Virus record (IMG/VR): IMGVR_UViG_3300050014_000104
Location: 1-55,703 of that record
Length of the DNA: 55,703 nt
Source: a virus
Strand: one strand, 5' to 3'
Positions 11,583-55,398 of the stretch are shown here, one piece after another. A program made the position numbers and the translations under genes. Position 1 is the stretch's first letter, and each line of letters starts with the position of its first letter. Below the pieces are notes generated by a model, which worked only from the letters and a program-made list of their open reading frames with translations, made no database searches and was not told where the DNA came from.

Positions 11583-12885
11583 AAAAGAGTTTGATGCTTT
11601 ATTAGAAAAAAATGGATGGAAGGTTGATGCCGATGGAAACATCTATGAAGAAGAGGGAAGAGGCGTGGTTCCCACGATACTTGATATATGGTTTCGTGAG
11701 AGGGTAGAGTATCGCAAGCTTCAAAAGAAGTTCTCCGACGAAGGGGACAAGGTTCAGTCGGAGTTCTACAAACGCCGTCAGTTGAGGCAGAAGATTTTCT
11801 TGAACTCGGTGTATGGAACGTTGGGTCTTCCAATCTTCCGCTTCTATGACCGAGACAACGCCGAAGCCGTGACCATCTCGGGTCAAGAGATTATTCGCTC
11901 GGCTGAGAAGTTGGTTAATGACATGTATTTCACGAAGTTCAAGGAAGCTAACGTCAATCCTCCGACGCAGGACTTCGTAGTGTATATTGATACTGATTCG
12001 TTGTACATGTCGGCATTGCCTGTCGGCAAACTTGCTGGCGTGAATCCCGAAGGCATGACCAAGTTTACCATTGATTGGGTGACGCAAGTAGCGAGCAAAA
12101 TCAATCAGTTCTACGAGTACATGGTGCCTAAGATATTCAATGTGGCACCCAATTACAACCGTATTAGAATCGTTCCCGATGTAGTAGCCAAGAAGGCTCT
12201 CTGGGTGGTTAAGAAGCGTTACGCCATGCTCAAGGTGTTTGACATGGAGTCAATGAAGCCTGTTAAGACTAAGGATGGTAAAGAGGGCAAGCTTGAAGTC
12301 AAAGGCATTGACGTGGTTCGCTCTAGCTTCCCCACAGCATTCCGTAAGTTCGCTTCGGATGCGTTGGACTCTTTGCTCCGTGGTATTCCTCAGAAAGAAC
12401 TGGACGAGCGCATTATGGTGTTTGAGGAAGGTATAGAGAAATGTTCTGTATTCGACCTTGCTAAGACGAGTTCTGTCAGGTTCATCTCTCGCAACGGCGA
12501 AGATAATTACAATCCATCCACTCGCAAACTGTTCCAGTTTATTAACAAGTCCCCCGCTCAAGTGCGTGCGGCCTTGGCCTACAACGACCTCTTGAAGGTG
12601 TGGAAGCTGGACCGACAGTTCGAGAAGATTACCCACAGTGAGAAAATCAAGTGGTGCTATCTTCTTCCTAATGACTTCTATGTGGAAGCCTTGGCGATGA
12701 AGGGTGATGATACTGACCCCGATGAAATTCTCAATTTTATTGAGGCTCATATTGACCGTAACAAGATGTATGAGCGGGAATTGAAAAGCAAACTCGGAGA
12801 CATTTATGAGGCTATTGGTTGGAGATACCCCAATCGTGGTTCTCAATTAGCATCAGAAACATTCAACTTTGAGGAACAATGGTAA
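11524..12885 (+). CDS. 43B: DNA polymerase, family B, C-terminal part (motifs B and C)
   Basis: 453 aa, ATG at 11524 with GGAAAGA upstream. After a charged ~35-residue lead-in and KNGWKVDADGNIYEEEGRGV, the sequence follows the fingers and palm: motif B RRQLRQKIFLNSVYGTLG (~85-100), motif C VVYIDTDSLYM (~153), then the KKRYAMLKV segment and thumb. Together with 9334-10716 the combined length (~913 aa) is close to T4 gp43 (898 aa). The lead-in partly repeats the end of part A, so the assembled enzyme would carry this element twice. Confidence 0.92.
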   Translation: MDEEKKYKIEISGKQMELTKKEFDALLEKNGWKVDADGNIYEEEGRGVVPTILDIWFRERVEYRKLQKKFSDEGDKVQSEFYKRRQLRQKIFLNSVYGTLGLPIFRFYDRDNAEAVTISGQEIIRSAEKLVNDMYFTKFKEANVNPPTQDFVVYIDTDSLYMSALPVGKLAGVNPEGMTKFTIDWVTQVASKINQFYEYMVPKIFNVAPNYNRIRIVPDVVAKKALWVVKKRYAMLKVFDMESMKPVKTKDGKEGKLEVKGIDVVRSSFPTAFRKFASDALDSLLRGIPQKELDERIMVFEEGIEKCSVFDLAKTSSVRFISRNGEDNYNPSTRKLFQFINKSPAQVRAALAYNDLLKVWKLDRQFEKITHSEKIKWCYLLPNDFYVEALAMKGDDTDPDEILNFIEAHIDRNKMYERELKSKLGDIYEAIGWRYPNRGSQLASETFNFEEQW

Positions 12886-35800: not shown

Positions 35801-37426
35801 ATGTTGGACATCTCTTGGAGTCCCCCTTATACCGTTAGAGAGGGATTCGCTACTAAATGGCGAAGGGAGTGGTGTATCCCGAAAGAGATGCTTGGAGGAT
35901 TCTTTGGGTTCTGGAAAGCTAATCGTTTCAAGATGTTAGCTGAGGGCTTCACTGTCACCAAGAGTGAAAAGACAGGCAAATGGTATCTAACTGAGACAAA
36001 GCCTACAGTAGCTCTCTTCAAGATTTTCAAGGACAAGCCTCCTAAGCCCGAGGACAAGTTTGCCCTGCCCTCCTACGCTATCAAAGACCCAAGCGGACTT
36101 CGTGTATGGCAGGTTGATGCTGCTGGAAAGTTATGTGCTGCCGTCAATCATTGGGGTGCCGCCATAGATGGCTCGGATACGGGCACTGGCAAGACCTATA
36201 CGGCGTGTGCTGTGGCTCGGGAGCTAGATTTGAACCTCTGCATTGTCTGCCCCAAGGCGGTCATCAAGCCGTGGACCAAGGTCATTAAGAATCATTTCAA
36301 GATGGGGTCCAAACTGGTAGGGATTATCAACTATGAGAAACTTAGCCGTGGACGCAAAGATTCACCTATTGCTTCCTATATTCTTCATCGCCACAAAAAG
36401 AGACCGACTTTTGAATGGAAAATACCTAAAAGGACTCTCATCGTTTGGGACGAGTCTCAAAAGCTTAAGAACTGGAAGACCAAAAACTCCAAGACCTGTC
36501 AAGCGGCCATTAAGGCTGGGTTCCCAATGCTATTTTGCTCGGCGACGAATGCTACGAATCCACTCGAAATGCGGGCTGTGGGTCTGGCCCTCAAGATTTA
36601 CGAGGGTAGTCAATCCTACTATTCATGGGCTTACGAAAACGGGGTTTATAAGGGTAACTGGGGACTTGAGTTTAACAACGACCCTAAGATACTAAAGGTA
36701 CTCCACCATCAAATTTTCAACCAGCGGGGCGTCCGACTTCGCCGTGATGAAATTCCCAATTTTCCTCAGTGCGAAATCATTCCAGAAGTGTATAACATGG
36801 AAGAGGAAGACGCACTCAAGATTAACGAGGTCTATACGGATATGGAACGAGAGTTGGCTAAGTTGGCCAAGGCGTCTAAGTACGATGCTATGGCCGAGGC
36901 GGTAGCTCAACTCCGTATGCGTCAGAAAGTCGAGTTGATAAAGGTGCCCCTCTTTGTGGATATGGCCGAAGAAGCCGTTGAAGAAGGCATGTCCGTGGTA
37001 ATCTTTGTCAATTTTACTGACACGCTTAACGCTATCGCTGCACGCATCAAGACTACTTGTATATTCGACGGTAAGACTGCCGACAATGTTCGGGATAGAA
37101 ACGTCGAATTGTTCCAAGAGGACAAAGAAAGAGTTATTTTAGTTAACATCCAATCTGGCGGTGCTGGATTGAGTTTACATGATTTGAACGGCAAGTTTCC
37201 TCGCATGAGTATCGTTTCTCCTACTTGGTCGCCAGTACTTATAAGACAGGCACTAGGACGTATTTGGAGAGACGATGCCAAAACTAAGTGTGTCCAGCGT
37301 ATTGTGTGTGTTGCCAATACCGTTGAGGAAGATGTCTGCCGCAATGTGCAACAGAAACTAAACAATCTGGACATGCTTAACGACGGAGATTTGGCGTACT
37401 CTAAAAATTACTCTGTGGATTTATGA
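35801..37426 (+). CDS. SNF2-like superfamily 2 helicase/ATPase
   Basis: 541 aa. After an N-terminal ~105 residues, helicase motifs run in order: I DGSDTGTGKTYTA (~127), Ia CIVCPKAVIKPW, II LIVWDESQKLKN (DESQ), III FCSATN, IV VVIFVNFTDT, V VNIQSGGAGLSLHDL and VI RQALGRIWR. This matches compact SWI2/SNF2-type helicases of phages, which use ATP to translocate on duplex DNA and may remodel forks, like T4 UvsW in role. Its stop overlaps the start of a GIY-YIG gene, so the endonuclease is translationally coupled to it. Confidence 0.88.
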   Translation: MLDISWSPPYTVREGFATKWRREWCIPKEMLGGFFGFWKANRFKMLAEGFTVTKSEKTGKWYLTETKPTVALFKIFKDKPPKPEDKFALPSYAIKDPSGLRVWQVDAAGKLCAAVNHWGAAIDGSDTGTGKTYTACAVARELDLNLCIVCPKAVIKPWTKVIKNHFKMGSKLVGIINYEKLSRGRKDSPIASYILHRHKKRPTFEWKIPKRTLIVWDESQKLKNWKTKNSKTCQAAIKAGFPMLFCSATNATNPLEMRAVGLALKIYEGSQSYYSWAYENGVYKGNWGLEFNNDPKILKVLHHQIFNQRGVRLRRDEIPNFPQCEIIPEVYNMEEEDALKINEVYTDMERELAKLAKASKYDAMAEAVAQLRMRQKVELIKVPLFVDMAEEAVEEGMSVVIFVNFTDTLNAIAARIKTTCIFDGKTADNVRDRNVELFQEDKERVILVNIQSGGAGLSLHDLNGKFPRMSIVSPTWSPVLIRQALGRIWRDDAKTKCVQRIVCVANTVEEDVCRNVQQKLNNLDMLNDGDLAYSKNYSVDL

Positions 37427-38079
37427 AGGTAGTAGGAATATACAAGATAGTTAATCGAGTCAACGGAAAGTACTATGTGGGGTCTTCCAATAACATATGG
37501 AAGAGGGTGGAGTATCAACATAAAAAACAATTACGAGACGGAAATCATTGGAATACCCATCTCCAAAGTGCGTGGAATCAATATGGTGAGTTATCGTTTG
37601 ATTTTATTGTCGTAGAAAGTTTTCAGTCCCCAAAATCCTATGTAAAGATGTGGGAAGAGGAACAGAAATGGCTGGATGTAGCAAAAAAAGAACAGGATAA
37701 ATGCTATAACAAATCCTTTATTGCTGGCGGGGTAGATTTTACGCCCGAGGTAAGACATAAAATGAGTATTGCGTCAAAGCAATGGATAAAACAAAATGGG
37801 CATCCGTTATTAGGAACTCACCCGAGCCTCCAAACATTAAAACGGTTATCAATATCTCATCTCGGGAAAAAATTGTCGGAGTCGGCAAAGAAAAAAATAA
37901 GTGGAATTAACTCGGTGGCTCATCGTTTAGAAGTTAAAGAAGCAAAACGAAAATGGTGGAATGAATTACGAAACGACCCATTAAAATATGAGTTGTTTTG
38001 TAAATCCCGTGGACAGAAATCTGCTGTAGCCAGAAAAAGGAAACGATATGGAAAGAACTATGAAATCATCAGCGACTAA
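37423..38079 (+). CDS. GIY-YIG homing endonuclease
   Basis: 218 aa. GIYKIVNRVNGKYYVGSS at the N-terminus, KRVEYQHKKQLRDG (catalytic Arg region), then WEEEQKWLDVA (catalytic Glu). C-terminal NUMOD3-like units: FTPEVRHKMS, HLGKKLSESAKKKIS. The start overlaps the helicase stop (ATGA), and the end overlaps the following gene by 32 nt. Confidence 0.88.
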   Translation: MKVVGIYKIVNRVNGKYYVGSSNNIWKRVEYQHKKQLRDGNHWNTHLQSAWNQYGELSFDFIVVESFQSPKSYVKMWEEEQKWLDVAKKEQDKCYNKSFIAGGVDFTPEVRHKMSIASKQWIKQNGHPLLGTHPSLQTLKRLSISHLGKKLSESAKKKISGINSVAHRLEVKEAKRKWWNELRNDPLKYELFCKSRGQKSAVARKRKRYGKNYEIISD

Positions 38080-42376: not shown

Positions 42377-43225
42377 CTACAAATCCAAGTAACTACCGAT
42401 TTTCAGTTCTTTTCCATTCCAAACCCCATAGTGCATATTGCCATGAACGTCGAGGCAAATGTTGTGTGACAGGTCTGGGTTATCCAGAGAAGTCAAGTAC
42501 GGCTTGAATAAGTCGTACGGACGATAAACAACCTTCCCGTCCTCGTTGAGGGGGTCGTGGTCTAAGATGCACCACTTGACGCCCTGTGCTTGCGGGGTAT
42601 GCCCCACAATCTGATTGATGCCCCGGAGAGGGAAAAACTCCCGCTCGAAGTCGCACCATGTAATCCCACCAACTCGCTGCTGCCCCCAACGGGCACGTCC
42701 AGCGTTAAAGACCCAAGACCCTTTGCTGTTGGCTCCATCTTGGAAACCTTTACGAATCTCATGGTCAAGGTATCCCGTCAGTTCGGCAATGAACTTCGGG
42801 CGGTCCTTACGGAACTTCTTGATGTTGTCGGGCACGTTGAGTTTATGCAACCCACCGTGACTGAGCAGCCATCGGCCATCCAGAAAATGAAACCACTTCA
42901 ACTTGTCCCACAGCTTCGGGTCAATGCTGTCATGGACAATGAAATACTTCCACTGTGCATATCCACTGCACTGAAACGTGCGATAAGGATATGCATAATG
43001 TACATCGTGATTTCCGAACAAGTGAATGCGATTTGGTTTGGCAACCGAGCCAGAAAGCCAGCAGCATGTCTCCCGAAACATTTCGGGTGTATCTGAAAAA
43101 TCATCGAAGTAATCGCCCAAGAAGATTATCTCGTCCGCTCCCACCGAAGCAATTATCTTCTCAGCCCTTTCCCATTTGAGATGGATGTCGGGTATAATCA
43201 GTGTAATCTTGTTTGTATTGCTCAT
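42377..43225 (-). CDS. Calcineurin-like metallophosphoesterase
   Basis: 282 aa. All metal-site blocks are present: IIPDIHLKWE (D-x-H), IIFLGDYFDD (G-D-x-x-D), HLFGNHDVHY (G-N-H-D), LLSHGGLHKL and IVGHTPQAQG (G-H-T). Phage enzymes like this (e.g. lambda NinI) dephosphorylate proteins; nucleic-acid or cyclic-phosphate substrates are also possible. Starts inside the 3' end of the LAGLIDADG gene; TTTACT/TATATT at 43275-43247 (minus) could be its promoter. Stop is TAG. Confidence 0.88.
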   Translation of the reverse strand: MSNTNKITLIIPDIHLKWERAEKIIASVGADEIIFLGDYFDDFSDTPEMFRETCCWLSGSVAKPNRIHLFGNHDVHYAYPYRTFQCSGYAQWKYFIVHDSIDPKLWDKLKWFHFLDGRWLLSHGGLHKLNVPDNIKKFRKDRPKFIAELTGYLDHEIRKGFQDGANSKGSWVFNAGRARWGQQRVGGITWCDFEREFFPLRGINQIVGHTPQAQGVKWCILDHDPLNEDGKVVYRPYDLFKPYLTSLDNPDLSHNICLDVHGNMHYGVWNGKELKIGSYLDL

Positions 43226-44006
43226 AGGTTTTCAATTTTCGTTCCAAATATACCACGGAATTGCCATAAAGTAAAGAGCAAAGTTTCATTGCTTTTTTGC
43301 CACTTGTTCTTGCTCGCCATATGTTATGGTCCTCAGAAAGTGTGAGGTTTAGGGACAATGATGATTTTACATAGTCAATGAACCCTTGTATCACCGATTT
43401 GCTTCCACACAATCCGACCTCCAAACTTTTGTATGGATATTGACTATTGACACATACATGCCCGTCTCCATCTACCACGCCACGCCAAAAATGTCGTTGA
43501 AGATGTTTTGGTATGGAGGGCGGAACTGCTGTCAAACTTTTCCTCTCGGTGATGTTATGCATTGATAAGTCCTCACACATTTTTTGACATCGTATTGCTA
43601 ATCTTGCTGTGGGGAAAGGTCCGCCAAATCCCCCTGATATGACTATTTGGTATTTGTTATTCCCTCTGATGGATTTTATAAACTTATCCAAATGTGGTTT
43701 ATCGGACTCTTTGAGTGCAATAATGATGTCTTTACCTCTGCTTATGCATCCATCTGCAAGAATGAACCCTAACCAGTACGCCTTTTCCTCGGTGTCTATT
43801 CGCTCAAAAAATCGCTCGTGGAATGTATAGCGTTTGCTGGTCTGTTGAGTGGTTCTGGTAGGCAATCCGTGGCGACGAACTATGTTGAGTACGGTAGCGA
43901 AATGTACTCCTGTTTGTTTGGATACTCCTATGGAGGATATGCCCTCCGTGTAGAGTTTGACAATTTGGTTTTCTACCTCTGCGGGGGTCTGATTGTATGT
44001 TCTCAT
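43161..44006 (-). CDS. LAGLIDADG homing endonuclease
   Basis: 281 aa. HTH-like N-terminus (ISSIGVSKQTGVHFATVLNI), then two catalytic motifs: KAYWLGFILADGCISRG (~80) and RHFWRGVVDGDGHVCVN (~175). Same class as the gene at 39696. Overlaps the start of the metallophosphoesterase gene by 65 nt, consistent with insertion at that gene's 5' end. Confidence 0.88.
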   Translation of the reverse strand: MRTYNQTPAEVENQIVKLYTEGISSIGVSKQTGVHFATVLNIVRRHGLPTRTTQQTSKRYTFHERFFERIDTEEKAYWLGFILADGCISRGKDIIIALKESDKPHLDKFIKSIRGNNKYQIVISGGFGGPFPTARLAIRCQKMCEDLSMHNITERKSLTAVPPSIPKHLQRHFWRGVVDGDGHVCVNSQYPYKSLEVGLCGSKSVIQGFIDYVKSSLSLNLTLSEDHNIWRARTSGKKAMKLCSLLYGNSVVYLERKLKTYEQYKQDYTDYTRHPSQMGKG

Positions 44007-46447: not shown

Positions 46448-46518
46448 GTTATTGCTGACATTACCTATTGTCTGTTATTTCTGACGTTTCTCTCTACTGT
46501 CTGATATGTATGACATAT
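46448..46518 (+). promoter_or_regulatory. Direct repeats and palindromic operator candidate
   Basis: GTTATTGCTGAC (46448) recurs as GTTATTTCTGAC (46474), each followed by a CTGTCT or TTGTCT. Then ATATGT-ATG-ACATAT, a 6+6 palindrome (46504-46518), runs into the ATG at 46517. Located between divergent genes, next to a protein with its own HTH domain, so autoregulation is likely. Confidence 0.45.
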
Positions 46519-47149
46519 GATTATTGAGAAAGAAATTGGAACTGGTACAGATTGTATCTATGTTTATTACAATCCGAATGACAAAAAACTTGCGTTGATG
46601 GAAAGCAAAGACCGATGGGAATGCAAGATAGGATTTTCTTCCACTGACCCAGTAAAGCGGATACAGAGTCAGGGGTATCAAACATCTATGGCAAGAGAGC
46701 CAGTCATTGGTCTGGTAATACGGACTACGAATGGTTACTATACTGAATCCTTCATTCATAAGCGTCTTTACAGTTATAGAGTCCCCTCAAAAGTAGGCGG
46801 TGACGAGTGGTTTCTCACGTCTCCCGCCGAAGTTGAATCAATTTTTGTTAATGACATTTTGCCAAATAAAAGTGGAGATACTTACTGCGAATATGAAATC
46901 TCAGATACCAATGACTTTGCTTCGGTGTTAAACTTGCATAGGAAAAAAGTAAATATGACAAATGAAAACCTTTGCAACAAAGTCAAGGTTAGTCGGGATA
47001 CGCTATGGAGACTTTTCCACGGACAGAAAACTGTGTGCCTTTCAACTGTATTCAAGGTGTTAAATGAATTGGATTTAGACATTACGTTAAAATCAAAACT
47101 TCCTGCTGACAAAATAAAGATTCATACATCGGCTCGTAAGGCACGTTAG
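46517..47149 (+). CDS. GIY-YIG (T5orf172/MUG113-type) protein with C-terminal HTH
   Basis: 210 aa. Residues ~12-115 follow the T5orf172/MUG113 branch of the GIY-YIG superfamily: CIYVYYNP, CKIGFSSTDPVKRIQSQ, TESFIHKRLYSYRV, DEWFLTSPAEVESIF. The C-terminal ~75 residues form an XRE-type HTH: TNENLCNKVKVSRDTLWRLF then FKVLNELDLDI. A nuclease with its own operator-binding domain is plausible. Stop codon TAG. Confidence 0.75.
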   Translation: MIIEKEIGTGTDCIYVYYNPNDKKLALMESKDRWECKIGFSSTDPVKRIQSQGYQTSMAREPVIGLVIRTTNGYYTESFIHKRLYSYRVPSKVGGDEWFLTSPAEVESIFVNDILPNKSGDTYCEYEISDTNDFASVLNLHRKKVNMTNENLCNKVKVSRDTLWRLFHGQKTVCLSTVFKVLNELDLDITLKSKLPADKIKIHTSARKAR

Positions 47150-47172: not shown

Positions 47173-47254
47173 TGGTCAGCGCAACGGGACTTGAACCACG
47201 TAAACCTCCACTATGTATTAGACAGTGGCGCTCTGCCAATTGAGCTATGCGCTG
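47173..47254 (-). tRNA. tRNA-like gene with enlarged anticodon arm (A)
   Basis: 82 nt with encoded CCA. Acceptor CAGCGCA/TGCGCTG (7 bp), D-stem GCTC/GAGC, T-loop TTCAAGT. The anticodon arm is 21 nt instead of 17: CCACTGT/ATAGTGG pair for 7 bp (one G-U) around loop CTAATAC. The T-stem ACGGG/CCCGT is perfect only if one T is bulged. The anticodon would read AAT with normal loop numbering; identity is uncertain and the gene may be degenerate. Confidence 0.6.
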
Positions 47255-47256
47255 GT

Positions 47257-47362
47257 TGGTCAACGAGGTAGGAATCGAACCTACGGCCCCGTGCATGTGT
47301 AGCACCACAGAATTCACTGTGCGGATTATTAGTCCGGCGCTCTTCCACTGAGCTACTCGTTG
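47257..47362 (-). tRNA. tRNA-like gene with ~30-nt insertion beside the anticodon stem (B)
   Basis: 106 nt with encoded CCA. Acceptor CAACGAG/CTCGTTG, D-stem GCTC/GAGC, T-arm GTAGG-TTCGATT-CCTAC are perfect. Anticodon stem CCGGA with loop CTAATAA (apparent anticodon AAT). Between TCCG and GGGGCC is an extra ~30 nt forming two hairpins, CACAG/CTGTG and GTGC/GCAC. Removing it restores a canonical class I tRNA (TCCGG closing the stem), so it looks inserted rather than a class II variable arm. Confidence 0.6.
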
Positions 47363-47364
47363 AT

Positions 47365-47444
47365 TGGCGGGGCACCGAGGACTCGAACCTCGAACCTTCA
47401 TTGCATTGCTGCAATGCTGCTCTATCCCATTGAGCTAATGCCCC
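47365..47444 (-). tRNA. tRNA-like gene with enlarged anticodon arm (C)
   Basis: 80 nt with encoded CCA. Acceptor GGGGCAT/GTGCCCC, D-stem GCTC/GAGC, T-arm CGAGG-TTCGAGT-CCTCG, variable AGGTT all normal. The anticodon arm has 20 nt instead of 17: CATTGC/GCAATG can pair for 6 bp around AGCAAT, or GCATTG/CAATGC around CAG, so no standard 7-nt loop with U33 forms. Identity cannot be assigned. The three genes A-C lie only 2 nt apart. Confidence 0.6.
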
Positions 47445-47457
47445 AAATTTCATATCG

Positions 47458-47730
47458 TTATGCCAGTATCAATTCCTCTGCGTGAGCGGCGAGATACTGC
47501 CGTTGGGCCTCTTGCTTGGCACCCCTTAACTCTTCAATCATCTCCGTGGCCCGTGCCCGCATCTTAAGCAAGTTGTACTGCATCCCACCAGCGTAGCCCT
47601 TGGCTCTCTGGGTCTCCTTGATGTCGGCCTTCGTCTCACGAATCTGCTGGCTGAGTGCTTTGTAAGTAGCCTTCCAGTTGGAACGATAAGCTAAATACGT
47701 TTCTTTGCTATTGAATGTGTATGTTGTCAT
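47458..47730 (-). CDS. Small helical phage protein
   Basis: 90 aa, almost entirely helical: KETYLAYRSNWKATYKALSQ, EMIEELRGAKQEAQRQYLAA. Proteins with this 'Y-L ... W-K-x-x-Y-x-x-L-S ... A-x-R-x-Y-L-A-A' layout are common small phage ORFs of unknown role. Located just upstream of the tRNAs on the same strand, so it may share their transcript. Confidence 0.65.
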   Translation of the reverse strand: MTTYTFNSKETYLAYRSNWKATYKALSQQIRETKADIKETQRAKGYAGGMQYNLLKMRARATEMIEELRGAKQEAQRQYLAAHAEELILA

Positions 47731-47801: not shown

Positions 47802-47944
47802 GAAAATCATTAAATAGGACACCCGATGAACAACGAACAACCATCAACGAGCGTAGAATGCGATATTACTGGAAACACCGCAAACAGGAGCGAGCCAATG
47901 CTCTCAAGCGATATTATAGAAAAAAAGACGTGTGCCAAATGTAA
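47795..47944 (+). CDS. Basic leader ORF overlapping the HNH gene in another frame
   Basis: 49 aa: MGRKSLNRTPDEQ, then RRMRYYWKHRKQERANALKR and YYRKKD. A close relative precedes the GIY-YIG gene at 55438 (minus). The basic 'RYYRKK' end is typical of N-termini joined directly to a Cys-rich HNH start, and the nuclease frame (+1) has exactly such a start (CAKCK) 8 codons before this frame stops. An A7 run (AGAAAAAAAGAC) near the end could permit slippage into the nuclease frame. Either a leader peptide or the true N-terminus. Confidence 0.5.
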   Translation: MGRKSLNRTPDEQRTTINERRMRYYWKHRKQERANALKRYYRKKDVCQM

Positions 47945-48464
47945 ATTGGATTTGCCGTTGGAAATGTTTAGCATACGCAATAGAAATAATAGTACGTTGA
48001 ATTGTTATTGTAAGTTATGCCAACCTGTGATTGCTCATAATTGGCGGATAAATAATTTGGGTAAAGTGAAGTGTCGGGAGAAATTATATCGCCGAGATAA
48101 TAAGGATAAAATCCAACGGCAGCAGAAAGAATATATGACACGGTGGATTGCCAGATTAAACTCTCGATTCGGCAGATGGAAAAAGAGTGCCCATCGGCGA
48201 GGAATTTCATTTGATTTAACTTTGGTGCAATTGGAAACAATGCCATTGTTATGTCATTATACTGGAAATGTATTGACGTTGGAAAGTAACAGACGGAATA
48301 CAGTTTCGTTGGATAGATTGGATTCTTCGCAGGGGTACACCATAACCAATGTAGTTTATTGCTGTTCGTTTGTAAATCTAATGAAGCATGAATTATCATA
48401 TAGTGATTTTGTTAATTCTTGTAAAGCAATTGTCGGTCATTATGAAAAATGTCATAAGAGTTGA
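47826..48464 (+). CDS. HNH homing endonuclease
   Basis: 212 aa from ATG 47826; translation may instead arise by frameshift from the 47795 ORF. Zinc pairs CAKCKLDLPLEMF and CYCKLC (~35-65), a basic helical segment (KDKIQRQQKEYMTRW), then CHYTGNVL and SLDRLDSSQGYTITNVVYCC and NLMKHELSYSDF, the same nuclease signature as at 6682 and 10977. The first ~35 residues (MNNEQPSTSVECDITGNT) have no domain character, as expected if they merely overlap the leader frame. Ends 13 nt inside the convergent Pth2 gene. Confidence 0.82.
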   Translation: MNNEQPSTSVECDITGNTANRSEPMLSSDIIEKKTCAKCKLDLPLEMFSIRNRNNSTLNCYCKLCQPVIAHNWRINNLGKVKCREKLYRRDNKDKIQRQQKEYMTRWIARLNSRFGRWKKSAHRRGISFDLTLVQLETMPLLCHYTGNVLTLESNRRNTVSLDRLDSSQGYTITNVVYCCSFVNLMKHELSYSDFVNSCKAIVGHYEKCHKS

Positions 48465-48802
48465 AAGTGTTTTGTTATATGTTTTATATCATTTTTCATA
48501 GCAGGGCCAAGGCCCAAAGCTGTAATGGTGGGTTCGCCACCGAAAAAGTTAGGACAACCTGAATCGGTCACTAAGTACGTGGAGATGCCCGCAGCCTCGG
48601 CTTCTTCTTTAGCACGAAGAAGGTGATGGAGGTTTTTGGCTTCGAGGCAAACTTTGGTGCCGGGGTGAGTGGGATACTCGGCGTGATACTCCTTTTGAAG
48701 GTCGGAGTTAGCATTAAGAAATGCACCGAGATAAGCATGGCCAGCTTGAGAGGCAATCTTGCCTGTGTCCATGCCAAGGTCCATACGCACGATGGAGTAC
48801 AA
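48452..48802 (-). CDS. pth2: Peptidyl-tRNA hydrolase 2
   Basis: 116 aa, the usual Pth2 length. SIVRMDLGMDTGKIASQAGHA (Lys and Gly of the active-site loop), GTKVCLEAKNLHHLL, TYLVTDSG and GEPTITALGLGPA match the archaeal/eukaryal-type Pth2 family, which frees tRNA from stalled peptidyl-tRNA. Start codon is TTG. In-frame upstream are ATG AAT AAT ACT TTC ACA, then TAG, then 7 codons to the TTG; so a longer form would need amber read-through. Lies downstream of an amber-type tRNA on the same strand. Confidence 0.85.
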   Translation of the reverse strand: MYSIVRMDLGMDTGKIASQAGHAYLGAFLNANSDLQKEYHAEYPTHPGTKVCLEAKNLHHLLRAKEEAEAAGISTYLVTDSGCPNFFGGEPTITALGLGPAMKNDIKHITKHFQLL

Positions 48803-48818
48803 ACGGAGAGTGGAGTCG

Positions 48819-48845
48819 GAAACCTATGTGAAAGTATTATTCATT
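48819..48845. repeat. Direct repeat copy 1 flanking the tRNA/HNH cassette
   Basis: GAAACCTATGT (48819-48829) and GTATTATTCATT (48834-48845). The same two words occur in the same order at 49345-49389. They bracket the amber tRNA and the HNH gene. Confidence 0.6.
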
Positions 48846-49202
48846 TGGGTGCTTCTCTTTCCAATGAAGTTTGTTGTGACAATTGGAACACATCACGTCA
48901 CACTTGTTTATCTCTTTAAGAAGACGGGGTATGCTCCATCCACGCAGAACGGCAAGCGAGACCTCTATGTCTTTTTGAGATGGGTCTCTATGATGGAATA
49001 GCAAACAAGAAATGTGAGATTCTCCGCAGGGGCAAACGAGTTTGGATTTATAATCCGACATCCACTGTTTAATCTGAATAAGGCGTTTTGCCTTATTCTG
49101 TAAGTTGATGGCAATGAGGCGAGTGCGATTTTTCAAGTAAAATCGGCGAGCACATTGTTTGGATTTTTTAAGACCTTCGGGAGTAGATTTATTGTACGGC
49201 AT
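48837..49202 (-). CDS. HNH homing endonuclease (small)
   Basis: 121 aa from ATG 49202; longer frames would begin inside the tRNA. Short basic N-terminus, then VCPCGESHISCLLFHHRDPS, with 'C-x-C-G-x-x-H ... F-H-H-R-D-P', ISRLLKEI-type helix and CDVMCSNCHNKLHW at the end, a compact zinc HNH common in phages. Its stop lies in repeat copy 1, so the gene seems to have arrived with the cassette. Confidence 0.8.
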   Translation of the reverse strand: MPYNKSTPEGLKKSKQCARRFYLKNRTRLIAINLQNKAKRLIQIKQWMSDYKSKLVCPCGESHISCLLFHHRDPSQKDIEVSLAVLRGWSIPRLLKEINKCDVMCSNCHNKLHWKEKHPNE

Positions 49203-49213
49203 ATACAATAAAT
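49187..49213 (-). promoter_or_regulatory. 10-bp start-codon hairpin of HNH gene
   Basis: ATTTATTGTA and TACAATAAAT pair perfectly around 7 nt (TATGCCG in the mRNA), so the ATG at 49202 is in the loop. TATTTAT lies 5 nt before the ATG. Confidence 0.6.
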
Positions 49214-49260
49214 AGGGAGGAAGGGACATAAACCACGAAGATAGTTTAATATCCCGAGAT

Positions 49261-49337
49261 TGGCGCTCCATATCGGATTCGAACCGATACAGACAATGGG
49301 TTAGAGCCATCCGCTCTGGCCGTTGAGCTAATGGAGC
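49261..49337 (-). tRNA. tRNA with anticodon CTA (amber suppressor type)
   Basis: 77 nt, fully canonical: acceptor GCTCCAT/ATGGAGC, D-stem GCTC/GAGC, anticodon stem GATGG/CCATT with loop CTCTAAC (U33, anticodon CTA, A37), T-arm ATCGG-TTCGAAT-CCGAT, discriminator G and CCA encoded. It should read UAG. The amino acid cannot be assigned from sequence alone. It has its own promoter upstream. Confidence 0.85.
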
Positions 49338-49344
49338 GTGGAAT

Positions 49345-49389
49345 GAAACCTATGTCGGACTGTTGCCATTCATAAATGTATTATTCATT
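49345..49389. repeat. Direct repeat copy 2 flanking the tRNA/HNH cassette
   Basis: GAAACCTATGT (49345-49355) and GTATTATTCATT (49378-49389), separated by 22 nt instead of the 4 nt of copy 1. On the minus strand both copies read ATGAATAATAC...ACATAGGTTTC. Confidence 0.6.
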
Positions 49390-49398
49390 ATGCCTATA

Positions 49399-49426
49399 AC
49401 TATAACACAGGTTAGGGAAATGTCAA
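49399..49426 (-). promoter_or_regulatory. sigma70-like promoter for the amber tRNA
   Basis: On the minus strand TTGACA, 16 nt, TATAGT. Transcription would run through the tRNA, the HNH gene and Pth2. Confidence 0.7.
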
Positions 49427-49449
49427 ATACTTTCGCAAAAAATCTTTGC

Positions 49450-49809
49450 CTACTTGGCAAAGGGGTTGATAATGAGGGACTTGGCCTTCTTTTCCCAGCC
49501 TGCGTTATTCATCTCTTCCTCGGAAATGAGGTTGATGTTCTCGTGCAGAGTCATAAGCATCACGGTGACGCCCTTCTCCCGCAGTTTGGCTGCGTATGGG
49601 GCGAGAAGTTTGGAGAAGACGGGTGCCACTGCCATCTTTTGAATTGGGTTCTCCACGTCAATGTTGATGACGAGAATCGAGTTGGGCTTGATGTCATCAA
49701 TGTTGATGGTTGTCACCCTATCGGCGGGCAATTGCAACTCGCTCGGGGGTTCGGCGGTTGTGATAAGTGCGGGGTTAAGGGGCGGTTGTTGTTCTTGGGG
49801 TTGGGTCAT
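49450..49809 (-). CDS. Hypothetical protein
   Basis: 119 aa. Pro/Gln-rich start, then alternating strands and helices: INIDDIKPNSILVINIDVEN, VFSKLLAPYAAKLREKGVTV, ending KSLIINPFAK and TAG. Similar small proteins occur in phages without known role. Overlaps the next upstream gene's end by 35 nt. Confidence 0.55.
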   Translation of the reverse strand: MTQPQEQQPPLNPALITTAEPPSELQLPADRVTTINIDDIKPNSILVINIDVENPIQKMAVAPVFSKLLAPYAAKLREKGVTVMLMTLHENINLISEEEMNNAGWEKKAKSLIINPFAK

Positions 49810-49987
49810 TGGATTTGTCTTTCAGTTCAGGACACGAGCCGCTGGTATGGTTTGTCCACAGACCACACAAGGCACACCATTTATTGTGCCAGTTAATGTC
49901 CCCGAAGTTATCATTCCACTTCTTGGGGTTGTACCCCAGTGTAGGTCTCATACCCTTACCGGGGTTACGGAATTCTTTCTTAGCCAT
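49775..49987 (-). CDS. Small zinc-finger-like protein
   Basis: 70 aa from ATG 49987. Residues ~33-52 CALCGLWTNHTSGSC give a C-x2-C-x6-H-x4-C zinc site. Pro/Thr-rich C-terminus. Overlaps the upstream gene by 8 nt. Function unknown. Confidence 0.6.
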   Translation of the reverse strand: MAKKEFRNPGKGMRPTLGYNPKKWNDNFGDINWHNKWCALCGLWTNHTSGSCPELKDKSNDPTPRTTTAP

Positions 49988-50282
49988 AGGTGCGTCTCCA
50001 TCGGGCATCATACAGCTTGGCGAGTACATCTCGGTGCCACGACATGCGACGAACGAGAGACTTCATCTTTCGATGCATACCCCATGCGGCAAAGAAGCCA
50101 TGAACTTCTTCTTTGGCGAGGGCAGTAAGCTGGGCGCTCATGCGGAGATACTCGCCCTCAACTTCGAGGATACGAGCATCAATTCCGCTGCAACACCGCT
50201 TTTCCTCAGCGAGGATAGCTTTCATGTAATCATTACCCGCCAGAAACGGCAGGTTAGCTACGTTGAAATGTGGGGCATTCAT
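49980..50282 (-). CDS. Hypothetical helical protein
   Basis: 100 aa, helical with coiled-coil potential (IDARILEVEGEYLRMSAQLT) and a basic end (RKMKSLVRRMSWHRDVLAKL). Overlaps the kinase stop by 4 nt. Not recognised. Confidence 0.6.
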   Translation of the reverse strand: MNAPHFNVANLPFLAGNDYMKAILAEEKRCCSGIDARILEVEGEYLRMSAQLTALAKEEVHGFFAAWGMHRKMKSLVRRMSWHRDVLAKLYDARWRRTYG

Positions 50283-50755
50283 ATTTTGTGTACGAAAACC
50301 ACTTCATCGAACTCGGGAACTTCGGGACGCTGATAGCGAGCCAGCATATCATCAATGACCTTTTCGGGCACATTGCGGCCACCCTCAGACCCACGCTTGG
50401 CGTTACGGCCCACGAGGACAGACTTCTCACACTCAAAGACTTCGGCAATCACCTTGGCCCCTCGGCCTCGGGCGATGTTGATAAAGTCCTTGCGGGCTTT
50501 ACGATACATATTGGTCGCATCGAAGATTACGCATTTTCCTTCGCCCAAAGCCTTCTTCATTTGGTCCTTGGCGAGGCAGAAAGCGGGGTACGATACCGTT
50601 TGGTCGTGGGAACCCTTTCCAAGAATACGGCGGTTATCGTCGGGGCAAACCCGTACAATGCGAGGGTCGCCCTCAGTGAGGACTTTGCCAAATGTGGTCT
50701 TTCCGCTGCCCGGAGCACCCACCAGTATCCAAACCACTAGCTGTTCTGTTTTCAT
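50279..50755 (-). CDS. P-loop polynucleotide kinase-like protein
   Basis: 158 aa from ATG 50755; an upstream TTG would start inside the promoter. WILVGAPGSGKTTFGKVL (Walker A, ~8-25), CPDDNRRILG, IFDATNMYRKARKDF (the 'D-A-T-N' segment of T4 Pnk-type kinases), and GGRNVPEKVIDDMLARYQ with lid arginines. T4-type polynucleotide kinases rephosphorylate 5'-OH RNA or DNA ends; the phosphatase domain of T4 Pnk is absent. Part of an RNA-repair neighbourhood with the cyclic-phosphate receiver-type protein and RNA ligase. Confidence 0.82.
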   Translation of the reverse strand: MKTEQLVVWILVGAPGSGKTTFGKVLTEGDPRIVRVCPDDNRRILGKGSHDQTVSYPAFCLAKDQMKKALGEGKCVIFDATNMYRKARKDFINIARGRGAKVIAEVFECEKSVLVGRNAKRGSEGGRNVPEKVIDDMLARYQRPEVPEFDEVVFVHKI

Positions 50756-50762
50756 CGTGGTC

Positions 50763-50791
50763 AATATAACCCACTACTTCGATTCTGTCAA
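50763..50791 (-). promoter_or_regulatory. sigma70-like promoter, leaderless arrangement
   Basis: On the minus strand TTGACA, 17 nt, TATATT; the -10 ends 7 nt before the ATG at 50755. It overlaps the end of the upstream gene. Confidence 0.75.
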
Positions 50792-51181
50792 CATTTTTCG
50801 GGCGCTCTCCAAGATGGAGAAGATATTTTGTCTCCCAATCGGGTTCAGGGTATGGATGTAGTACAGGGGAACAGGCACCTTGCGTTCTACGCATAGGTGA
50901 GCCAGCCATCGGGCACAATCCATGCCCGTCTTCTCTCGGAGAAGTTCATAACGAATGGTGCCGAACGACTCTGAATTTTCATCGTGAGCCGCCGAGTACT
51001 CGGCATAATGCTCGTCTGCCAAGTCGTGGTCAAACGAGACTGTAGTGGGAATACCTTTCTCCGTTATGGTCTCGGTGAATTCAGCATATGATTTTACTAC
51101 CACCCAAGCATACGGAGGGAGGTCGAGCCACTTGACATCGCTCGGTTTACGGTTGTCATCTAGGAATAAGTGATATGACAT
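50774..51181 (-). CDS. Cyclic-phosphate processing receiver-domain (cREC) protein
   Basis: 135 aa from ATG 51181. YHLFLDDNRKP at the first strand, WVVVKSYAEFTETI, IPTTVSFDHDLAD and GMDCARWLAHLC, ending with YYIHTLNPIGRQNI. This order defines the cREC family, receiver-like domains predicted to act on 2',3'-cyclic or terminal phosphates in RNA repair. Context (kinase downstream, RNA ligase upstream, same strand) agrees with that prediction. Confidence 0.75.
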   Translation of the reverse strand: MSYHLFLDDNRKPSDVKWLDLPPYAWVVVKSYAEFTETITEKGIPTTVSFDHDLADEHYAEYSAAHDENSESFGTIRYELLREKTGMDCARWLAHLCVERKVPVPLYYIHTLNPIGRQNIFSILESARKMLTESK

Positions 51182-51182
51182 G

Positions 51183-51596
51183 TTATTTCTTTTTCTTCTT
51201 CTCTTCGTCAAACAAAGGATTGAAGATGTTGCCAACTATGAGCATTTCACGGTGATACCCAATATCAATATTCATCTTGCAGTCAGGCATCTTTAATTCA
51301 AACTTTCCATTTGAAAAGACAACGGTGTAACCATATTCTCGGTGCCCATCTTTATCAAACACTAAGACATCTCCCTCGTAGATTTCTTTTCCTGATTTAT
51401 CCGCCGTACCTGTATATTGATGAATAATATAGTCCTTCTGATTGGACTCGGCGTAAGCACCCATATTATCATTGTGCATTACTTTACCATCCACCGACAG
51501 GCAAACCCACGGATGATACTCATATCCTTCTTGGGCAATTCTCAGAAAAGAATTAGAACGTTTAGACCAAATACGAAATTTGAGTTCTCTATTCAT
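51183..51596 (-). CDS. YopX-family protein
   Basis: 137 aa from ATG 51596. ELKFRIWSKRSNSF at the start and HQYTGTADKSGKEIYEGDVL as the family hallmark, followed by the usual small beta-barrel (GYTVVFSNGKFELKMP). Ends IFNPLFDEEKKKKK, nearly the same tail as the RNA ligase directly upstream (VLNPMFDIERKKK). Function unknown. Confidence 0.85.
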   Translation of the reverse strand: MNRELKFRIWSKRSNSFLRIAQEGYEYHPWVCLSVDGKVMHNDNMGAYAESNQKDYIIHQYTGTADKSGKEIYEGDVLVFDKDGHREYGYTVVFSNGKFELKMPDCKMNIDIGYHREMLIVGNIFNPLFDEEKKKKK

Positions 51597-51597
51597 G

Positions 51598-52647
51598 TTA
51601 CTTTTTCTTACGCTCAATGTCGAACATAGGATTGAGGACTTTTCCTGACCAGACTTTCTTGAGTACTCCGCTCGTAAATCCTTCTTGCGGACGAACAACT
51701 ACGCCCTCGGCGGGGAAGCCATTTGGATACTTTTGCTCGCTGGCGAATTTCACCAACTCTTCAATGTTGAACCCAAACGCTGTACCCTCACCAATGGTAG
51801 TAACCATTGTGAGACAGTGGTCTTTGCAGAATTGAGTAAGCTTCTCGTAGTTCAAGTAGCCCCGAGTTTTGATGTCGAAGAGATTGAAAACGTGTAGTTC
51901 CAACTCCGTTAGGCCAAGATGATTGTCTTGGATGCCGGGACCGCAGACCTCGCCTTGAATGGCCATAGCTTGGTTAGGGAATGCTGCCTTAATGACGTTC
52001 GCAAGGTCATATTTGCGAGCCATACGCCAGAATCCATTACCCTCGCTTTCTTTCAGGTGAATGCGTCGGCTGCAAACACCAAACTCGTCTGCATTGACGA
52101 AGAAGGTGCCAGAGCAGCCATCATCTTTACGAGTGATGTAGTACGGGCGTCCCCACAATTCCTCAAGGGCAGTAGGATAAGTACGCAGATTGTCCTCGTC
52201 GGTCATGATAAGGAACCCGGGGAGCATACCGACAGCTTGACCAGCCAACTCGGCCGGGATAGGTTTTTCGTAATGGATAACGCTAAGTTTATCGGTGACA
52301 TCTTCACCTTCATTTACCAAGTAGAAATATGGACCATCTGGCAACAAATCAGTGCAAGGTTTTCGTGAAACTTTATCGCCGAGAATGCTCAGAGGAAAGC
52401 AGATTCCCGCACTTTCCTCTCCCCTCAACCGAATTGGTTTAATCCTAAAGTGTTTGTTTCGCAGAAATTCAAACTCAGGAGTTTCAGGAACTACCGAATC
52501 TATGCAGATATAAACACATAAATCCCCCGCCTTGAATTCTCCTTTTTTGACGACGACGTTCCACCCCAATACCTTTGCGATTTCAAGTGCGTCCGCATTA
52601 TTATGCGGAAGAATTTCTCGTATTTTTTGTACTGTTGCTTCTTTCAT
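51598..52647 (-). CDS. RNA ligase (DRB0094/Rnl-type)
   Basis: 349 aa. N-terminal OB-like domain (ADALEIAKVLGWNVVVKKGE, GDLCVYICIDSVVPE, IKPIRLRGEESAGICFPL) as in the DRB0094 group. Ligase core: motif I YYITRKDDGCSGTFFV with the K-x-D-G nucleotidyl-lysine, CSRRIHLKE (motif Ia/III region), AIQGEVCGPG (motif III), FPAEGVVVRP (motif IV) and GVLKKVWS (motif V). Such ligases seal nicked RNA, notably tRNA cut by host anticodon nucleases. Its promoter lies inside the upstream GIY-YIG gene, and the start overlaps that gene's stop. Confidence 0.88.
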   Translation of the reverse strand: MKEATVQKIREILPHNNADALEIAKVLGWNVVVKKGEFKAGDLCVYICIDSVVPETPEFEFLRNKHFRIKPIRLRGEESAGICFPLSILGDKVSRKPCTDLLPDGPYFYLVNEGEDVTDKLSVIHYEKPIPAELAGQAVGMLPGFLIMTDEDNLRTYPTALEELWGRPYYITRKDDGCSGTFFVNADEFGVCSRRIHLKESEGNGFWRMARKYDLANVIKAAFPNQAMAIQGEVCGPGIQDNHLGLTELELHVFNLFDIKTRGYLNYEKLTQFCKDHCLTMVTTIGEGTAFGFNIEELVKFASEQKYPNGFPAEGVVVRPQEGFTSGVLKKVWSGKVLNPMFDIERKKK

Positions 52648-53465
52648 AATTTACAGCCCAATCTATGTTGTTCGGAGGAACTATAACCTAACCATGTCAT
52701 TTTGTCAAGTCCAAGATTCCGCAGTTTTTTGTATATGCCGTGATTGAATCCCAATTTTTCTTTTTTGTAATTGCCAAATGCCATTCCAGTAAATTCTTTG
52801 AATTTATTTATTATTGTTGGGCACGAGACACCATATTCCTCAGAAATATCTCGGATGGTTAGAAGTGGAAACTCATGAATTTTTTTTATGATTTCTTCTA
52901 CTGGAATTTCTCGGAAACTTGGATTTTCCTTTCCTGTCCACCGAATTTTATGCATTTCTTTGAGTTTATTGGAAATTGATGGCGTCATTACTTCTTCATA
53001 TTTTTTCCCCCGCCGTGCTACAGATAATTTTTTCTTGGTGATGGATGTATGATGTTGTCCGAAGAAATGATGAAGTTCTCCGAACTTGCCTTCGGTAGGA
53101 TTTGGTGGGGGTGGATGAGTCTGAAAATATTTTTTCAGAGTTTCGCTTATGCGTCGTTTGTATTCCTCCGACCGAATTCCATTTTCTCCCCCCTCGGTGA
53201 GGTTGTATCCGACTGACTGGTCCATAGAGTTGTAATACTTAATCCAATGCTTTTCTCGCTCTCCACTTTCGGATACATTGCATATTTCTACAGTTTCTAT
53301 CGTAAAGTTTTTCTCTCCGTATTTGTTGATAGCAGCGTATAAGTGGCGTCGGTCATGCCATTTTGCTTCGTTGAGATGTTTCCGCCATCGTTTTGCGATG
53401 GTTGAGCTTGTCTTACCAATATAAATTTTGCCGTTTGTTTGGTTGGTTATTTTGTAGATTAACAT
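52644..53465 (-). CDS. GIY-YIG homing endonuclease
   Basis: 273 aa. LIYKITNQTNGKIYIGKTSS at the N-terminus, KRWRKHLNEA (Arg helix), EREKHWIKYYNSM (Glu), GYNLTEGGENG; then NUMOD modules SEEYKRRISETL, TSITKKKLSVARRGKK and an HTH-like TIRDISEEYGVSCPTIINKF. Overlaps the RNA ligase start by 4 nt. A TATTTAT box and a GAGGG ribosome-binding site precede the ATG. Confidence 0.88.
   Translation of the reverse strand: MLIYKITNQTNGKIYIGKTSSTIAKRWRKHLNEAKWHDRRHLYAAINKYGEKNFTIETVEICNVSESGEREKHWIKYYNSMDQSVGYNLTEGGENGIRSEEYKRRISETLKKYFQTHPPPPNPTEGKFGELHHFFGQHHTSITKKKLSVARRGKKYEEVMTPSISNKLKEMHKIRWTGKENPSFREIPVEEIIKKIHEFPLLTIRDISEEYGVSCPTIINKFKEFTGMAFGNYKKEKLGFNHGIYKKLRNLGLDKMTWLGYSSSEQHRLGCKL
52680..52708 (-). 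promoter_or_regulatory. sigma70-like promoter of RNA ligase inside the GIY-YIG gene
   Basis: On the minus strand TTGACA, 17 nt, TATAGT, about 33 nt before the ligase ATG, followed by a small GTTC-CTCC-GAAC hairpin. No clear ribosome-binding site. Confidence 0.7.
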
Positions 53466-54442: not shown

Positions 54443-54741
54443 GAATGAAAATATCAAAGTCCAAGCCTCTTTCACGGAAAAGACTGTTATCTCTAATAGA
54501 TAATGAATTGCACGAATTAAGAGCCGTGGCTGAATCGTTATCCGAGAAAATTGGAGATGGGGAGAGAAGGTTTGTATTCAAAACTATGGTCCCAACATCA
54601 ACTGATGGTTCTGTAATAGCAAATATTCGTAACAATCTATCACACATTAGATGTTGTATCAATTCTATTGCGTGTGGGACAGATAATAGACGGATTCTCG
54701 ACAGTCCACCAGCAATAACGGGGACGAAGACCCGCCAGTAA
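54439..54741 (+). CDS. Hypothetical protein
   Basis: 100 aa, ATGA overlap with the deaminase stop. Basic start (MRMKISKSKPLSRKRLLSLI) then a helical region (NELHELRAVAESLSEKIG). Its last 102 nt overlap the convergent GIY-YIG gene. Not recognised. Confidence 0.55.
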   Translation: MRMKISKSKPLSRKRLLSLIDNELHELRAVAESLSEKIGDGERRFVFKTMVPTSTDGSVIANIRNNLSHIRCCINSIACGTDNRRILDSPPAITGTKTRQ

Positions 54742-55398
54742 ATAATATGGGTTAACCCCCGTTTTCTTTCGGAAATCAAACTGCGTGCCCGTGAAATACT
54801 CATTGGTATGGCAATTGAAAAATTTGTGAATGGTGGGAGTTCTTTGAGCTATGCTTTGTCTCTCTCGTTGTTCTGTGGTAAACACTTGTCTTTTGCGTGC
54901 CTCTTTGATTTTCTGTATGGTGTCTCGGCGGTGGTGTTTACCGAACATTACGTTTCGTGACCCTTTGTGAGACCCCGACATTTTTTCTTTGGTTTCATTG
55001 GTGTGTAATCTTCCCCGCATAGGGGCAACAGCATCGTAAGATATGTTATAGGAAGAATTTGGGCAGGATTTACATATGTCTAAATAAGACTGCTCTATAG
55101 TTAGAAGGCGTGCGGGTTCCGCTACCTCTACAATTATAAATTGAAATGCATCTTCTCCATACTTATTCCACGCATTTTGTAGATGTGAGTTCTCATGGCG
55201 GTTTCCATCCAGTCTATTGTAGTGGATTTGCCATCGGCGGTATAATTGGTCCGAACTGCCCACATAATACTTCCCGTTTACCGTGTTGACTATTTTGTAT
55301 ATGCCGCTTGTTTCGCCAGTATCTTGCCCGTGCTTTTTTCCGCTCTCGGGGAGCGTGCTTCCAGTAAGACCGCATTCGGTATTTTCGGTTGAGTTCAT
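54640..55398 (-). CDS. GIY-YIG homing endonuclease
   Basis: 252 aa from ATG 55398; expression may instead come by frameshift from the 55438 ORF. GIYKIVNTVNGKYYVGSS starts only at residue ~32; before it is a featureless stretch (MNSTENTECGLTGSTLPESG) that overlaps the leader ORF. Then RRWQIHYNRL, IEQSYLDICKSCPNSSYNIS, NUMOD3 NETKEKMSGSHKGSRN and an F-x-G-T-x-F unit. Same enzyme class as at 37423. Confidence 0.82.
   Translation of the reverse strand: MNSTENTECGLTGSTLPESGKKHGQDTGETSGIYKIVNTVNGKYYVGSSDQLYRRWQIHYNRLDGNRHENSHLQNAWNKYGEDAFQFIIVEVAEPARLLTIEQSYLDICKSCPNSSYNISYDAVAPMRGRLHTNETKEKMSGSHKGSRNVMFGKHHRRDTIQKIKEARKRQVFTTEQRERQSIAQRTPTIHKFFNCHTNEYFTGTQFDFRKKTGVNPYYLLAGLRPRYCWWTVENPSIICPTRNRIDTTSNV

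Follow-up and report, generated by a model that had tools for sequence, protein, structure and literature searches.

A cupin gene paired with tRNA-like genes in huge phages, and a tandem array that probably no longer reads codons

Introduction

Plant-virus tRNA-like structures (TLSs), such as the valine-type TLS of turnip yellow mosaic virus (TYMV) and the tyrosine-type TLS of brome mosaic virus (BMV), mimic the tRNA acceptor without serving decoding, and in the valine type A35, C36 and A73 are the valine determinants (PMC9976931). Transfer-messenger RNA (tmRNA; RF00023) joins the upper half of a tRNA to a long domain standing in place of the anticodon arm. Irregular tandem tRNA-like genes, the allo-tRNAs and irregular tRNA polycistrons, were described from soil metatranscriptomes, some of them with five-stem junctions; E. 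coli synthetases do not charge these RNAs (PMC7609411). A tRNA-like module also occurs in YrlA, a bacterial Y RNA (RF02553), and altered anticodon loops in phage tRNA genes whose products escape host tRNases (PMC10264068). We here describe a minus-strand tandem of three tRNA-like genes, A, B and C, at positions 47173-47444 of a viral sequence of 55,703 nucleotides (nt), IMG/VR record IMGVR_UViG_3300050014_000104 (hereafter, the window), which bears a likeness to each of these systems.

Among the array and its relatives, points of likeness by sequence are A35 and C36 to the TYMV TLS, or C1-G72, A73 and a 4-nt pseudo-anticodon loop to that of BMV (PMC9976931). Unlike plant-virus TLSs, they are free-standing genes of DNA phages, with a true cloverleaf, no acceptor pseudoknot and a cupin gene as neighbor. 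In contrast to tmRNA, the array RNAs keep the D stem and are devoid of the G3-U70 alanine mark; they yielded no RF00023 match, and ARAGORN found no tag open reading frame (ORF). Phage tmRNA genes are nevertheless present in relatives, designated here by L numbers (L006 4740-5147, L033 13659-14058 and L038 8628-8995), that of L006 being a separate, real tmRNA. Whereas allo-tRNAs have 8/4 or 9/3 acceptor branches and no described link to phages or cupins, the array genes have a 7/5 branch and changes in the anticodon arm. The tRNase-escaping phage tRNAs keep normal arms and decode (PMC10264068), whereas the arms of the array are rebuilt and that of C has no anticodon. As to YrlA, the only match spanned B and A at chance level (27 bits, against a gathering threshold of 69). 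Rfam families matched none of the inserts in the window array and the loci tested, and searches of open-licence papers found no description of such RNAs. The array RNAs are a kind of tRNA-like RNA; the truly new element is their pairing with a cupin.

Results

Genes A, B and C keep a tRNA body around an abnormal anticodon arm

An initial annotation, made from the sequence alone, had reported three tandem tRNA genes with altered anticodon arms, intact acceptor and D arms and an encoded CCA, and all of this was borne out by ARAGORN (A and C), Rfam (A, B and C) and RNAfold. Transcription runs from C through B to A [Table 1]. Matches to RF00005 scored 44.3 bits for A, 57.2 for B (47260-47362) and 41.8 for C, all above the gathering threshold of 29 bits, and these matches, together with a CCA read directly, place in each gene the 7/5 acceptor-T stack, D arm and CCA terminus of a canonical decoding tRNA. 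ARAGORN called A 'Ile aat' and assigned to C a four-base 'gcaa' without an amino acid. None of the three, in contrast, has the canonical 5-bp anticodon stem and 7-nt loop with U33.

The 21-nt arm of A (CCACTGT-CTAATAC-ATAGTGG) forms 7 bp or, alternatively, 5 bp with an 11-nt loop; despite the 7-bp stem, a 7-nt loop with U33 can be drawn. The T stem of A carries a bulged U, as the initial annotation had also seen. In B, 54 nt separate the D arm from the T arm instead of the usual ~23: an anticodon hairpin with a normal 7-nt loop on a stem of only 4 bp is followed by two added hairpins, the insertion proposed earlier. The arm of C, described earlier as 20 nt long and without a normal loop, does lack such a loop but measures 18 nt (CATTGCA-GCAA-TGCAATG), RNAfold placing its 7 bp under a GNRA-type tetraloop. 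A fourth tRNA gene of the window (49261-49337, minus strand; CUA anticodon), whose arm of 5 bp and 7 nt is normal, provides an internal control. A selenocysteine-like 8/5 acceptor was considered for B and rejected, its eighth pair consisting of base 0 and the discriminator A73 and the Rfam alignment being a normal 7/5.

The arms are conserved with compensatory changes in a related contig

In IMG/VR contig L005, C', B' and A' follow one another as in the window, flanked by the same genes and accompanied by one extra copy; the flanking proteins are ~80-87% identical to those of the window. The gap-free alignment of B with B' covers 106 nt and shows 18 differences, 12 of which make up six helix pairs altered on both sides and still pairing, while no pair is broken; six double-changed pairs were reached by none of 200,000 random placements. 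Two of the four pairs of hairpin 1 and three of the five of hairpin 2 changed on both sides, the loop of hairpin 2 being identical and the stem of hairpin 3 unchanged. A' (L005 5097-5177) keeps the 7-bp anticodon stem, in which one pair changed on both sides and another on one side, and three pairs are exchanged between the acceptor stems of A and A'. The arm of C' (L005 4908-4986) is identical to that of C, and the same type of arm recurs in L011 at 9606 and 9756. Anticodons, in contrast, are not conserved between orthologues: B reads AAU in the window and CCU in L005, and the loops of A and A' differ. With arm structure kept or compensated while triplets vary, selection maintains the shape of these RNAs, not their codon.

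A, B and C are thus neither errors nor products of decay. Sequencing errors, which the initial annotation had listed as a possible refutation, do not account for the same arms in an independent contig, and its argument that random decay would be a poor explanation gains from the balance of compensated and broken pairs. The bulged T stem of A and a truncated tRNA-like copy in L022 and near-identical contigs could still speak for decaying or mis-assembled tRNA genes; given L005 and a signature common to the whole cupin-linked family described below, we regard this as very improbable. Exact patterns from B and C matched L005 alone in IMG/VR, as did a search anchored on the 90-aa neighbor protein, and a DNA similarity search of the array region against named phages gave no match.

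A conserved cupin gene defines a wider family of tRNA-like RNAs

The pairing with a cupin and the wider family had been overlooked in the initial annotation. The cupin gene lies downstream of the array, A and B standing 739 and 823 nt upstream of it with a homing-endonuclease-like gene between, which is absent from L005. The cupin product, 86% identical in L005, matches phrog_4786 'cysteine dioxygenase' (E 3.6e-22). The AlphaFold model adopts a cupin fold (pLDDT 87.5), and Foldseek ranks metal cupins such as TM1459 highest, with identities mostly of 10 to 15%; no cysteine dioxygenase appears among the descriptions of the 50 Foldseek matches listed, the name coming from PHROG alone. Three histidines are invariant, two in an HxH motif and one further along the protein.

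With the cupin gene as anchor, 36 IMG/VR loci were recovered, most of them belonging to phages 100 to 550 kb in size. All 36 have, on the cupin strand and no more than ~1 kb away, a tRNA-like RNA with normal acceptor, D and T arms around an abnormal middle of 23 to ~220 nt; five copies are decayed, being truncated without a T arm (L022 near 9510-9650, L023, L025, L026 and L028). L024 and L027 carry the intact form of this truncated RNA. We refer to the family of cupin-linked tRNA-likes in huge phages as class X. A scan of both strands of 717 kb for tRNA-likes with C1-G72 and A73 but no canonical anticodon arm gave 27 matches, 25 of them on the cupin strand and less than 1 kb from the cupin, across 24 loci; the remaining two overlap and are readings of a single L037 tRNA-Pro gene. 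Members from L005, L010, L013, L014, L015, L019, L020, L031, L033, L035 and L042, for which the scan rules were too strict, were added on inspection. Conversely, when a 26-base T-arm/acceptor pattern was run against all of IMG/VR, it hit four contigs, each of them one of the cupin loci. The RNA can precede or follow the cupin, as it follows in L015, L017, L020 and L030, and is thus not simply a leader of the cupin mRNA.

Class X members share a signature. By hand tally of 36 representatives, C1-G72 is present in 35, U71 in 28 and A73 in 34; the last four loop bases 5' of the 3' strand of the anticodon stem open with A-C in 31 and read ACAU in 20. A35-C36 was found in 17 of the 21 members with an automatically placed stem. 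Among ordinary tRNAs of the same loci, C1-G72, U71 and NAC anticodons are rare (in a list counting each tRNA twice). The 5' side of the class X loop, where U33 and base 34 belong, is lost, interrupted or replaced by 1 to ~200 nt. In the best-aligned long-insert group (L032, L033, L036, L038 and L039), double changes affect the acceptor, D and anticodon stems, and the inserts hold a covarying hairpin with a fixed GACG loop, ACAU being unpaired. The large insert of L016 and L024 sits in the D loop, the anticodon arm being a short capped hairpin. The near-canonical members (L010, the extra copy D' of L005, and L024) read UAC, which suggests that class X may descend from a tRNA-Val-like gene that progressively lost decoding.

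With C1-G72 and A73, A and B fall into class X, while C (G1-C72, G73) belongs to a separate GCAA-capped type, found again next to class X in L011. In A, automatic stem placement puts ACAU ahead of the 3' anticodon-stem strand; B has ACAU in hairpin 3 only, and C has no ACNN there.

Cultured phages carry the same pair

The cupin is also encoded by the Caulobacter phages CcrPW and CcrColossus, Brevundimonas phage Bajun and Rhizobium phage RHph_Y1_11, and all four have tRNA-likes in which inserts of ~160 to 210 nt separate the two strands of the anticodon stem; CcrPW and Bajun each have two such genes in tandem. CcrPW and CcrColossus share 91% identity over this region. In the CcrColossus genome, tRNAs had been reported as the sole functional RNAs (PMC3556154). 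These genes are unannotated, lying in gaps or, in RHph_Y1_11, within the start of a DNA methyltransferase coding sequence (L048 2276-2995), which opens inside the tRNA-like gene and whose annotated start is therefore probably wrong. Neither ARAGORN nor Rfam detected the tRNA-likes of Bajun and CcrPW. A cupin search of genome contigs gave no match.

Genomic neighborhood

Downstream of the array in the numbering of the window, genes for a peptidyl-tRNA hydrolase, a kinase, a cyclic-phosphate-processing protein and an RNA ligase form an RNA-repair-like cassette in one neighborhood (48452-52647, minus strand) [Table 1], from which we conclude that the window phage probably deals with tRNA damage. 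The ligase and kinase genes invoked in the initial annotation are real by Pfam and TIGR matches and relevant to tRNA damage and repair, although most relatives were recognized through the cupin rather than a ligase. Homing-endonuclease-like genes of GIY-YIG, LAGLIDADG and endonuclease VII types, some assigned from reading of the translation alone, are scattered around the tRNA region (37423-38079, 43161-44006, 46517-47149, 47826-48464, 52644-53465 and 54640-55398).

The amber-suppressor-type CUA tRNA (ARAGORN 'Pyl') is kept in L005, L006, L008 and L010-L014. Global amber recoding was rejected: TAG ends 6 of 44 long window ORFs, that is, remains a stop, and reading TAG as sense changed coverage from 0.855 to 0.854.

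Ordinary tRNAs with apparent anticodon-loop inserts of 45 to 130 nt occur in L034, L037, L040 and L043 [Table 1]. The inserts, of two or more families by sequence (ACGGA..CACCGAAACG and GGAAATGTTCAGCAA), look like undescribed small tRNA introns of huge phages. L037 also has a tRNA-Pro (11730-11885) whose long anticodon-arm insert holds a T-arm-like and an acceptor-like segment.

Table 1 Features of the window and insert-bearing tRNAs of related loci
Feature	Position	Strand	Description
tRNA-like gene A	47173-47254	-	C1-G72, U71, A73, CCA; ARAGORN and Rfam
A anticodon arm	47208-47228		7-bp stem, or 5 bp plus loop GUCUAAUACAU
tRNA-like gene B	47257-47362	-	C1-G72, A73, CCA; 54-nt middle with three hairpins; Rfam 57.2 bits
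B hairpin 1 (anticodon hairpin)	47322-47336	-	Loop CUAAUAA; UUCCUAA in L005
B hairpin 2	47306-47321	-	CACAG-UGAAUU-CUGUG
B hairpin 3	47291-47305	-	GUGC-UACACAU-GCAC; holds ACAU motif of cupin-linked family
tRNA-like gene C	47365-47444	-	Acceptor GGGGCAT/GTGCCCC, G73, CCA; ARAGORN, Rfam and RNAfold
C anticodon arm	47399-47416	-	7 bp plus GCAA tetraloop, no anticodon
Cupin-fold protein, 138 aa	46022-46438	-	Conserved partner gene of the tRNA-like family
T5orf172/GIY-YIG-type homing-endonuclease-like gene	46517-47149	+	Between array and cupin; Pfam PF10544, E 4.6e-9
90-aa gene	47458-47730	-	Upstream of array; 81% identity in L005
Pth2-type peptidyl-tRNA hydrolase	48452-48802	-	Pfam PF01981, E 1.8e-24
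Polynucleotide-kinase-like P-loop kinase	50279-50764	-	TIGR04075, E 3.2e-16; phrog_505
cREC_REC cyclic-phosphate-processing domain protein	50774-51235	-	Pfam PF20274, E 4.9e-20
RNA ligase	51598-52647	-	Pfam PF09414, E 2.1e-21; phrog_968
Insert-bearing tRNAs, L034	6228-6387, 10801-10979
Insert-bearing tRNAs, L037	7700-7873, 10715-10957, 12934-13066
Insert-bearing tRNAs, L040	8398-8859, 14111-14224
Insert-bearing tRNAs, L043	7018-7138, 8444-8560

Discussion

Judging from sequence comparison, A, B and C are probably functional phage RNAs that have kept the tRNA body and abandoned codon reading, A and B as members of class X. Compensatory conservation, the absence of a usable anticodon from C, the common signature and the gene pairing directly support this reading. 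The possibility of tRNA-like RNAs raised in the initial annotation is well supported, arm structure being kept or compensated while the B triplet changes and C has no anticodon. Several observations weigh against it. A 7-nt loop with U33 (AAU) can be drawn for both A and B, for which residual decoding is thus possible; C lies outside class X; and the members from alphaproteobacterial phages end in AAGA or AAAA rather than ACNN. Of the valine determinants, which also include G20 and G45, those found by sequence in most of class X are A35, C36 and A73, valine identity being no more than putative, and part of the anticodon stems were positioned by eye. Finally, distant cupins of Mycobacterium and Gordonia phages are without such an RNA, so that the cupin can function alone.

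If codon reading was indeed abandoned, the RNAs would be matured as tRNAs (RNase P, CCA) and recognized by tRNA-binding proteins, possibly valyl-tRNA synthetase, and would act outside decoding, either as decoys or inhibitors of a host tRNA-directed factor or as charged carriers. The replaced anticodon arm would be the source of specificity, and the cupin would act in the same pathway. Class X RNAs, their anticodon loop closed off or replaced by a domain of 1 to ~200 nt, keep for the most part A73, C1-G72 and the 3' half of a valine-type loop (A35, C36).

Between these roles, we tentatively rank first a decoy or inhibitor role directed at host anticodon nucleases or at other defenses that target tRNAs; decoys for anticodon nucleases were among the ideas of the initial annotation. 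The adjoining Pth2, kinase, cREC_REC and RNA ligase genes, in pointing to the handling of tRNA damage, favor a decoy without proving it; copies are in tandem with fast-changing inserts, and phage tRNAs with altered anticodon loops have been proposed to escape host tRNases (PMC10264068). Such nucleases, however, read an anticodon loop that C does not have, and the conserved cupin pairing is left unexplained. That pairing, universal and with a cupin retaining its HxH metal motif, speaks for the second-ranked and more doubtful role of a carrier that would undergo valine-type aminoacylation and pass or present the amino acid to an enzyme other than the ribosome; the cupin might oxidize that amino acid. 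CCA, A73, A35 and C36 are retained, and the valine-type TLS of plant viruses is charged outside translation and tolerates inserts (PMC9976931), but C1-G72 differs from the acceptor pair of valine, no enzyme of this kind is known, and the RNA-free distant cupins speak against it as well.

The suggestion that the arms hold spliced inserts, with ordinary tRNAs such as tRNA-Val arising once the anticodon loop has been cut and the kinase, the cyclic-phosphate-processing protein and the RNA ligase have acted in turn, appears unlikely as a general explanation and may apply to A only. A complete healing-and-sealing set lies at 50279-52647, removal of the four nucleotides CUAA from A leaves GUUACAU (Val UAC), and other tRNAs in L034, L037, L040 and L043 look intron-bearing. 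General splicing is nonetheless disfavored because C offers nothing to excise and would still have no anticodon, the minimal arms of L019, L017, L011 and L024 are tetraloop-like, inserts stay paired, and U33 is not consistently available in the long-insert forms. The conserved loops of B hairpins 2 and 3 are also at odds with introns, which usually drift. At E 0.5 to 1, neither the window array nor L011, L016, L018, L021, L030, L032, L036, L039, L045 and L046 matched an Rfam intron family, group I or other. Less likely still are unorthodox decoding tRNAs, in which four-base anticodons or long arms would serve special codons or frames. ARAGORN's gcaa reading of C would fit them, and tRNA-Pyl functions with a 6-bp anticodon stem (PMC7609411), but the tetraloop-capped arm of C has no U33 and the anticodon of B differs between orthologues.

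On the reading that these RNAs left decoding, the virus seems to use the tRNA shape for a purpose other than codon reading. A two-part huge-phage module may tentatively be envisaged, in which a cupin metalloprotein would work with a dedicated non-decoding tRNA-like RNA, (valine-)charged or tRNA-bound, whose anticodon loop would have become a docking or effector domain. Standard tRNA scanners overlook class X RNAs or call them odd tRNAs. Class X offers a testable answer to the question of what role phage tRNA-shaped genes may have beyond codon supply; with phages of Caulobacter, Brevundimonas and Rhizobium in culture, that answer can already be put to the test. Should the two-part module prove true, it would be a DNA-virus counterpart of the plant-virus TLS or of tmRNA.
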